A DNA stretch of 64,000 nucleotides. Origin: a bacterium BMS3Bbin10 (GTDB taxonomy: Bacteria > Pseudomonadota > Alphaproteobacteria > Rhizobiales > Methyloligellaceae). The notes under the pieces were generated by a model. The model was not told where the DNA came from. It ran no database searches and saw nothing but the letters and a program-made list of their open reading frames with translations. The position numbers and the translations under genes are program-made. Positions 10,079 to 12,848 of the stretch are shown here, one piece after another. The stretch spans positions 1 through 64,000 of the forward strand of contig BDTT01000068.1 in the NCBI GenBank assembly GCA_002897995.1, read 5' to 3'. The stretch's first letter is position 1; each line of letters begins with the position of its first letter.

Positions 10079-10531
10079 CTAGCGCCGGCGCGGGCGAGGC
10101 CGTTGCGGGCGAACGGGCTGTCGGGCGTTGTAGATTCTGCGCTGCGCCGCGGGCCGCCACGGTTTGACGTCGGGGGAGGCGCCGGGCCCGCCACGCGGTC
10201 CGGGAGGATTTTCCCAGTTTGTGCCGGGCCCGCCTCTGGGGCCGGGAGGATTGTTGTCGCTGTCGAAAAACCTGCGCCAGACCCACGGCCGCCACGGCTT
10301 GGCGTCGGGGGAGGCGCCGGGGCCGCCGCGCGGTCCAGGGGGGTTCTCCCAGTTTGTGCCGGGACCCCCTCTGGGCACCGGGGGGTTGTTGTCCCTGTCG
10401 GGAGCCGCCAGCGCAAGCGTTGCCGTGGCGAGAAGGATGCCGGTTGTCAGCGCGGCGCAAGTGATCGCTCTTGCAAATCCGCCATCGCGTTCACGAAAGT
10501 CTTGTTCCGCAGTCTCCCGTCTGTTCCACAT
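10079..10531 (-). CDS. Secreted NPPGPRGGPG tandem-repeat protein
   Basis: Signal peptide (AITCAALTTGILLATATLALAAPDR), then two 45-aa repeats DNNPP[VG]PRGGPGTNWENPPGPRGGPGASPD[AV]KPWRP...; DNA-level direct repeat of about 135 bp (units start near 10161 and 10296). Confidence 0.8.
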   Translation of the reverse strand: MWNRRETAEQDFRERDGGFARAITCAALTTGILLATATLALAAPDRDNNPPVPRGGPGTNWENPPGPRGGPGASPDAKPWRPWVWRRFFDSDNNPPGPRGGPGTNWENPPGPRGGPGASPDVKPWRPAAQRRIYNARQPVRPQRPRPRRR

Positions 10532-10602
10532 AACTCACTCTCCTGATGTCCCTGGCGGCTCCGGAGCAGGTTTTCCCTGGGGGAAACGGAGCACTAAAAA
10601 CG

Positions 10603-10707
10603 TGGGAAATAATCCCACAATATGGAGATTATTATGTGGGAAATTTTCCCATGTCAAGTTTTTATGTGTTATAGAACAAAATGAAACAATGATGGGATAA
10701 CATCCCA
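10603..10707. promoter_or_regulatory. Three operator-like palindromes TGGGA-N5-TCCCA
   Basis: TGGGAAATAATCCCA (10603-10617), TGGGAAATTTTCCCA (10637-10651), TGGGATAACATCCCA (10693-10707), in the intergenic region between divergent genes. Confidence 0.75.
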
Positions 10708-10756
10708 CAATCTGCTTATAGAGGGCGTCAGAGCCCATTCAGATGAAAGTGGAAAC

Positions 10757-11590
10757 TTGACACCAGGCGAACCGCATCCGGCATTGATGCAGGCCCTTCA
10801 CCGGCTTTTGCGCCCGCTCGTGCGCGCCCTCATCGCCAAGGGGATCACCTTTCCCTCGCTGTCGCGGCTGCTCAAGCAGGTTTATGTCGAAGTGGCGCGG
10901 GACGAATTTCCGGTTCCGGGAAAGCCGCAGACCGACAGCCGTATCTCTTTGCTGACCGGCGTGCACCGCAAGGACATCAAGGCGCTGCGGGAGCGCCGGC
11001 GTGGCGGCGATGCGCCCTCGCCGGTGCTTTCGCGCAATGCGCATCTGATTGCCCTGTGGACCGGCGCGCCCGACTATATTGACGGGCGCGGGCGCCCGCG
11101 CCCCCTCCCGCGCCAGCGTTCAAAGAATGGCGGGCCGTCCTTTGAAGGCCTTGTCTCCTCCGTTTCCACGGACATCCGTGCCCGGGCCGTTCTTGATGAA
11201 TGGGTGCGTCGGGGCCTGGCGCGGGTCGACGAGGACGACCTCGTGCATCTGGACATGACGGCCTTCGTGCCGAATGAAGACTTCGGCGATCTGGCATATT
11301 ATTTCGGGCGCAATCTGCGCGATCATATCGCCGCCGCCGGCCATAACCTGCTTGGGGCCAAGCCCGCCATGCTGGAACGCGCGGTGTATTACGAGAAGCT
11401 CCGCCCAGGCTCCGTGGAAGAACTCGCCGGATATTCGCGCGAGCTGGGATCGGAGGCGCTGGTCAAGGTGAACCAGAAAGCGTTCGAGCTGGCCGAGCGG
11501 GACAAGAACGCGGGCGACGCAACCCGGCGCATGACCTTCGGCGTCTATTTCTATTCCGGCCCGGACGATGGTCCGGACGGCGAGGAATAG
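10757..11590 (+). CDS. DUF6502 family protein (possible DNA-binding regulator)
   Basis: HPALMQALHRLLRPLVRALIAKGITFPSLSRLLKQVYVEVA...DSRISLLTGVHRKDIKALR; coupled to the downstream DUF5666 gene. Confidence 0.8.
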   Translation: MTPGEPHPALMQALHRLLRPLVRALIAKGITFPSLSRLLKQVYVEVARDEFPVPGKPQTDSRISLLTGVHRKDIKALRERRRGGDAPSPVLSRNAHLIALWTGAPDYIDGRGRPRPLPRQRSKNGGPSFEGLVSSVSTDIRARAVLDEWVRRGLARVDEDDLVHLDMTAFVPNEDFGDLAYYFGRNLRDHIAAAGHNLLGAKPAMLERAVYYEKLRPGSVEELAGYSRELGSEALVKVNQKAFELAERDKNAGDATRRMTFGVYFYSGPDDGPDGEE

Positions 11591-11594
11591 GGCG

Positions 11595-12848
11595 ATGGCC
11601 AATCACTCCGATCGCCCGAACCTTTCCGCGCTGTTTGCAGGATGCCTGGCGTTTTTTGCGCTGCTGGCCCTCAATGGCTGCGCCGGATCGCTTGGCGGCG
11701 GCGGCGCGCCGGCGGCTTCTGTCACCGGCGAAGCTCCCGTTTCAGAACCTGCCGGCACCGCTGTGAAGGTCGCCCAGATGAGCGGCCGGCCCGGCATTGG
11801 CGGCACCGGCAAACCCAATGACAAATCCCCCGGCATCGGCGGCACGGGGCAGGTTGCGGGCGCGCCTCCGGGGATCGGCGGCACGGGCATCGTCGGCACC
11901 GTCACCGGCTTTGGCAGTATCCTCGTGAATGGTTTTGAAGTGGATTATGCGCCTGACCTGCCCATCACCTTCAAGGATCGTAAGGTGCGTCCCGATGCCT
12001 TGCGCATCGGCCAGGTGGTCGAGGTGGAAGCGCAGGGGAGCGGCAACCGTTTGCGGGCAAACCGGCTCGCCATACGCCATGAGGTGGCCGGTCCCATCGA
12101 GCGGATCGACCCCGCGCGGCGCATTGCCGTCGTGTTCGGGCAGCGGATCGAAATCCCCGAAGGCGTTATTTCAGCGGGCAATGGATCGCGGGCGATGAAA
12201 ATTGGCGGCCTTGGCGTCGGAGACCATATCGACGTCAGCGGACTGAGGCGCGCGGACGGTGTGATCGCCGCCTCGCGCATCGATAAAACCGGGCCCGGCG
12301 CGGCGACGGTATTGCGCGGCCGGGTGACGGCCACCGGCCGGACCGGGTTCTCCGTCAATGGCGTGCGCATCGATGCGCCAGCCGGCAGCAGGCCGCGCAC
12401 GCTGGCTTCGGGCCAGGATGTCCAGATCATCGGCACGGCCGTTGGCGGGCGTCTGCGCGCGCGGCGCATCGATCAGCTTCCCCTGCGGCCCTTCTCGGGC
12501 CGGGTGCGGCGTTTGTCCGTCGAGGGCTATGTGAGGCGCGCCATTTCCGGAGGCGTGGCCGTGGGGCGCGTGCCCATTACCCAGCTTCCGGCGCGCGCCA
12601 ATTTACGCGCCGGGCAGCGCATCATTCTTGACGGTTCGCTCGATGCCCGGGGGCGTTTTGCGGCAAAACGCCTGCGCGCGCCGCGCATCGATTTGCGGCG
12701 TCCCGGCCGCGCCCCGGCGAACCTGAACACAAGACCTACCCCCGGCCGCCGGGTGATACCGCCCGCGCCACGGCCGCCGGTACAGCGCGCTCCGTGGCCA
12801 AGACGCCCGGACACATTCCGCGCGCCGCCGCGCAGGCCGGGAAGGTGA
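11595..12848 (+). CDS. DUF5666 domain lipoprotein
   Basis: Lipobox ALLALNGCAG; GIGGTG motifs; VGTVTGFGSILVNGFEVDY; repeated DUF5666-like beta units (GRVTATGRTGFSVNGVRIDA). Confidence 0.85.
   Translation: MANHSDRPNLSALFAGCLAFFALLALNGCAGSLGGGGAPAASVTGEAPVSEPAGTAVKVAQMSGRPGIGGTGKPNDKSPGIGGTGQVAGAPPGIGGTGIVGTVTGFGSILVNGFEVDYAPDLPITFKDRKVRPDALRIGQVVEVEAQGSGNRLRANRLAIRHEVAGPIERIDPARRIAVVFGQRIEIPEGVISAGNGSRAMKIGGLGVGDHIDVSGLRRADGVIAASRIDKTGPGAATVLRGRVTATGRTGFSVNGVRIDAPAGSRPRTLASGQDVQIIGTAVGGRLRARRIDQLPLRPFSGRVRRLSVEGYVRRAISGGVAVGRVPITQLPARANLRAGQRIILDGSLDARGRFAAKRLRAPRIDLRRPGRAPANLNTRPTPGRRVIPPAPRPPVQRAPWPRRPDTFRAPPRRPGR

Follow-up and report, generated by a model that had tools for sequence, protein, structure and literature searches.

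The DUF6502 locus and its three palindromes

The window analysed here is a stretch of 64,000 nucleotides from the alphaproteobacterium BMS3Bbin10 (contig BDTT01000068.1). A gene for a predicted exported repeat protein and a gene of the DUF6502 family diverge from an intergenic region (10532-10756) that carries three palindromes. The features of the locus are as follows.

10079..10531, minus strand: divergent gene, predicted exported protein of NPPGPRGGPGTNWENPPGPRGGPGASPD repeats, 150 aa; predicted repression target
10602..10618, no strand: putative operator site 1, GTGGGAAATAATCCCAC, core TGGGAAATAATCCCA at 10603-10617; just 3' of the predicted divergent transcript start
10629..10634, minus strand: predicted -10 hexamer TAATAA, 17 bp from the -35 (sequence prediction; an 18-bp reading gives AATAAT at 10628-10633)
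10636..10652, no strand: putative operator site 2, GTGGGAAATTTTCCCAT, core TGGGAAATTTTCCCA at 10637-10651; fills the spacer of the predicted divergent promoter
10652..10657, minus strand: predicted -35 hexamer of the divergent promoter, TTGACA, immediately adjoining site 2 (sequence prediction)
10692..10708, no strand: putative operator site 3, ATGGGATAACATCCCAC, core TGGGATAACATCCCA at 10693-10707; the closest of the three to DUF6502
10757..11590, plus strand: DUF6502 gene, proposed regulator; TTG start as listed, alternative ATG at 10787
10934..10993, plus strand: DUF6502 codons 60-79, helix-turn-helix-like DSRISLLTGVHRKDIKALRE; K72 at 10970-10972
11177..11179, plus strand: DUF6502 R141 codon; by covariation, this residue follows the outer operator base most closely
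11568..12848, plus strand: DUF5666 gene, starting at ATG 11568 or in-frame ATG 11595; overlaps or directly follows DUF6502

The first-pass annotation was right to name DUF6502: the window protein matches the Pfam family (PF20112) with E = 3.8e-32 and 111.6 bits against a cut-off of 27, over model positions 3-261 of 268. The DUF5666 gene is probably its operon partner. A DUF5666-like exported protein is encoded directly 3' of DUF6502, often with an ATGA-type overlap, in 87 of the 122 loci compared below, a rough count because a simple sequence signature was used. The pair also occurs in annotated public records of Azospirillum, Methylocystis, Pseudoroseomonas, Rhizobium and Variovorax. In a DUF6502 subfamily with the motif TGLQRRD (L084, L086, L088-L101), an adjoining DUF5666-like gene is mostly missing; two ATGTG-N7-CACAT sites often precede the start of its DUF6502 gene, at distances of about 64 and 18 bp. 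The divergent repeat protein (10079-10531) had no match in Pfam or NCBIfam. A relative is encoded in another family of the same order (L158 1327-2055), also behind a putative operator.

The three 15-bp TGGGAN5TCCCA palindromes are genuine and far above chance. All three exact copies reported earlier were found in place and a pattern scan gave no other in the window; dinucleotide shuffles of the intergenic region (n=5000) averaged 0.0006 sites and never exceeded one. They lie in a stretch (10590-10720) correctly described as A+T-rich, with 33% G+C compared to 62% in the window. The palindromes reach 17 bp: site 1 reads GTGGG-N7-CCCAC, and in sites 2 and 3 the outer pairs of the 17-bp form are one G:C and one A:T. 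The first-pass annotation would have been undermined by a motif common throughout the genome, but the whole genome (3.18 Mb; 3,184,120 bases) has four exact matches, three of them here within 105 bp. The fourth has a G+C spacer, and all exact sites with an A+T spacer in this genome thus belong to this locus. When one mismatch was allowed, the genome had 42 sites compared to 56 for a reversed control pattern, with no excess, which speaks against a genome-wide regulon in this genome.

Conservation of the sites and their fit to predicted promoters

DUF6502 loci were collected from the same family, order, class and phylum, from two further families and from five plasmid loci, giving 122 after de-duplication across the alpha-, beta- and gammaproteobacteria, and 300 bp upstream of each was scanned. 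The exact palindrome recurs upstream of DUF6502 in 47 of the 122 loci (64 sites compared to 0.03 expected from dinucleotide shuffles), as expected from the earlier proposal that orthologous upstream regions would carry it. The wider form TG[GT]G-N7-C[AC]CA occurs in 80 loci (135 sites; 2.9 expected from the same kind of shuffle). In roughly one in four of the 122 loci, the 300 bp upstream of DUF6502 held no recognisable site. A Burkholderiales group with the motif VSRIS..TG[IL]xRRE (L118, L122, L125, L067, L130) is mostly without a recognised upstream operator.

The motif is nearly restricted to genomes with the gene. Of 21 related genomes that lack DUF6502, two contain the 17-bp form GTGGGAN5TCCCAC, both with G+C-rich spacers, and seven contain a reversed control pattern. 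All 19 DUF6502 genomes searched contain the 17-bp form, but these were preselected for the motif at the locus and the comparison is therefore informative on its negative side only.

From the three matches the first-pass annotation had proposed a dimeric regulator binding cooperatively. A regulator that reads the palindrome is supported by the conservation and restriction of the sites and by the covariation described below, but a rigid cooperative, helically phased array is not. DUF6502 loci of the same genus keep all three sites, with centre-to-centre distances of 34 and 55/56 bp. Outside the genus the spacing varies between 28 and 61 bp, which leaves rigid cooperativity unsupported; the helical-phase signal is weak (Rayleigh p ~0.014), and in many orthologues there is only one site. 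The arrangement suggests individual sites placed on individual predicted promoter elements.

The positions of the sites fit this reading. In 25 loci, the window included, TTGACA or a one-mismatch version (TTGACR, mostly TTGACG) abuts the operator (1.3 expected); this -35 points away from DUF6502 in all 25, and the TA of a -10 follows after exactly 17 bp in 23. In the window, a generic promoter scan independently picked the divergent promoter, with the 18-bp reading. Another seven loci carry a -35-like element (TTGTGT or similar) inside the gene-proximal palindrome, with a -10 (TACAAT etc.) 16-18 bp further on, facing DUF6502. The predicted operators thus overlap predicted promoter elements of both the DUF6502 gene and the divergent gene, as is usual for a local repressor; the DUF6502 gene of the window has a weakly defined promoter of its own.

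Second sites elsewhere in some genomes usually have the same TTGACG-operator arrangement. In several genomes of the order-level set, a single additional operator lies at a distance from the DUF6502 gene, within a promoter of the TTGACG- or TTGAAG-operator type (L152 1981, L153 1989, L154 2048, L155 2070, L156 2045). The genes behind these distant sites share an RRFxPxLAxGF-like motif followed by a hydrophobic segment, and are likely a second target.

Covariation of operator bases with DUF6502 residues

Versions of the operator half-site differ at the outer base (GTGGG or A/TTGGG) and at the middle base (TGGG or TGTG). These operator classes were compared with DUF6502 residues at 90 loci. Where residue 141 is arginine, the outer G is present on both sides of 67 sites, on one side of 18 and on neither side of none (0/85). 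Where it is not arginine, no site has the outer G on both sides (0/60), 10 have it on one side and 50 on neither. In a tree-based test of correlated change, residue 141 came top of 90 columns for the outer base (LR 32.8, p = 1.3e-6), although p-values from this test are optimistic because the residue grouping was chosen to favour each column. Mutual information had been used to narrow about 271 columns down to these 90, and the residue-141 p multiplied by 271 is still <0.001.

Residue 72 tracks the middle base, lysine occurring with TGGG and arginine with TGTG (p = 1.4e-4), less strictly than residue 141 tracks the outer one. This rule is not universal because Burkholderiales proteins with SGVHRRD have R72 and yet retain GGG sites. 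Crossed comparisons of residues 70 and 72 with the other base were not significant. When columns were grouped freely, several columns outside the helix correlated too, so relatedness is not fully removed, and H70 dropped to tenth for the outer base. H70 had at first fitted as the reader of that base, but it fails for LHRKD, several SGVHRKD and Rhizobium proteins, all of which R141 fits with the exception of some mixed sites, few in number.

Eight further loci that were not part of the correlation set (five Rhizobium, two Acinetobacter and one Microvirga) obey the residue-141 rule, although the Rhizobium and Acinetobacter sites were examined before residue 141 was chosen and are data outside the fit, not blind predictions. 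The Rhizobium loci first seemed to be exceptions because they have no site upstream of DUF6502; all five combine H141 with an ATGGG-N7-CCCAT site just past DUF5666, before the next small gene. The two Acinetobacter loci have His141 and Arg72, with ATGTG sites (ATGTGCAATATGCACAT or ATGTGCAATTTGCACAT) before neighbouring genes, and Microvirga has Arg141 with a GTGGG site. In three Rhizobium records (L072 5923; L163 5927; L164 5946), the operator is on the far side of the DUF6502-DUF5666 pair, a small hypothetical gene comes next and the neighbourhood is flagellar and chemotactic.

These correlations argue strongly, if indirectly, for DUF6502 itself as the protein that reads the palindrome. The earlier suggestion that it is the regulator has become the most plausible one, since the sites are conserved at its orthologues, scarce in genomes without it and covary with its residues.

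DUF6502 as a putative local regulator

Residues 59-79 of the protein form a helix-turn-helix sequence pattern, TDSRISLLTGVHRKDIKALR, and residues 128-166 (VSxDVRPRAVLDELxRxGLV, then a predicted hairpin) resemble a generic winged helix, both judged by eye. A medium-confidence model of the N-terminal part (pLDDT 67; about 57 in this region) places helices at residues 61-67 and 71-82. A profile search of solved structures found no relative of DUF6502, a fold search with the N-terminal model matched no solved structure, and a full-length model from four sequences was unusable (pLDDT 38); the helix-turn-helix reading therefore draws on the sequence pattern and a weak model. A profile search of 44 members (E up to 10) found no WYL domain, in a search where the HMMER filters drop most very weak matches. 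TetR, MarR and LacI profiles gave no significant match, DUF6502 alone being significant; a TetR_C_11 match in one member (E = 0.57) is consistent with chance. No NCBIfam model matches DUF6502, and the viral contigs searched contained none. A literature search, which covered subscription papers thinly, gave no paper on DUF6502 or the motif, and a search by the Rhizobium identifiers gave no match. Few papers name DUF5666 and, going by titles and abstracts, they mention it incidentally.

We consider it very probable that the palindromes are operators of the adjoining DUF6502 protein, a previously uncharacterised and probably dimeric helix-turn-helix factor that represses the divergent gene and its own operon. 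We infer that the protein physically binds the sites, dimerises, represses and does not activate, and responds to a signal that relieves the repression; the regulator is probably a dimer because the sites are palindromes. Each site, of the form GTGGG/ATGGG-N7-CCCAC/CCCAT, would be bound by a DUF6502 dimer. In the divergent sigma-70 promoter (TTGACA-17-TAATAA), site 2 would take up the entire spacer, and binding there should therefore exclude RNA polymerase and silence the exported repeat-protein gene. Site 1, near the start point, would reinforce this repression, and site 3, perhaps with site 2, would repress the DUF6502-DUF5666 operon, which would amount to autoregulation.

An activator of the divergent gene, or a dual regulator, could bind the same palindromes, and several loci do carry extra sites outside the predicted promoter core. 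We regard this as unlikely, because the operator takes up the stretch between -35 and -10 in a promoter that has a near-consensus -35 and canonical 17-bp spacing, and a protein bound there would ordinarily block the polymerase. MerR-type activation from within the spacer goes with over-long spacers of 19-20 bp, and the conserved, canonical 17 bp disfavours this mode.

The correlation of other DUF6502 columns with operator class would also suit an unlinked regulator that has DUF6502 merely as one of its targets. This is very improbable given that related genomes lacking the gene hardly contain the palindrome, that the operator bases separate by residue 141 of this very protein, and that all exact A+T-spacer sites of the window genome are at the DUF6502 locus. 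A consensus scan scores all three palindromes as terminator-like, but that they act as RNA hairpins or transcription terminators and not as protein-binding DNA is scarcely credible: a hairpin requires pairing only, and here the half-site is conserved in its actual bases, which vary with the protein. Moreover, site 2 and its counterparts are located within predicted promoter spacers and are therefore not transcribed from that promoter.

Repressor-operator systems with the layout proposed for DUF6502 are well known. Local repressors of the TetR, MarR and LacI types use palindromic operators between -35 and -10 and exclude RNA polymerase. DUF6502 resembles them in its divergent, autoregulated layout and spacer operator, as predicted here, and differs in having no significant match to these families and apparently two DNA-reading stretches. 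BrxR (e.g. of Acinetobacter) is a locally encoded winged helix-turn-helix homodimer whose palindrome, with half-sites 5 nt apart, overlaps the -35 element upstream of its own gene (PMC9122589). BrxR/WYL autoregulators and DUF6502, as proposed here, are alike in the local regulator, the palindrome and the operator at a -35 element. This is a likeness only and no relatedness is claimed, as DUF6502 has no detected WYL domain, and it adjoins exported proteins whereas BrxR adjoins phage defence. For DUF6502, a family listed by Pfam as of unknown function, an operator and a regulatory role are newly proposed here.

More broadly, we lean slightly towards the view that DUF6502 is an unrecognised transcription-factor family, widespread in Proteobacteria, with two DNA-contacting stretches: residue 72 of the N-terminal helix-turn-helix would face the middle base and residue 141 of the winged helix the outer base. 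It would act mainly at its own locus on exported and surface proteins (DUF5666, repeat proteins and one Acinetobacter trimeric autotransporter adhesin), with a specificity partly predictable from both residues. Two separate stretches would then read neighbouring bases, and one of the correlations could be indirect. The proposal gives a Pfam family of unknown function a candidate role, an operator and residue-level predictions, and ties it to exported partners (DUF5666, repeat proteins, adhesins) of mostly unknown role. Concretely, the operator base should shift with residue 141 or 72, and the promoters should be derepressed on deletion of DUF6502.

In two Acinetobacter records (L161 8101-8119, 3211-7971; L162 12594-12612) DUF6502 is near surface-protein genes. 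One of the two is filed as a phage but looks like a bacterial contig. In one case the genes are those for a YadA-type trimeric autotransporter adhesin and an ompA-like protein, and an ATGTG-type palindrome precedes the cluster.
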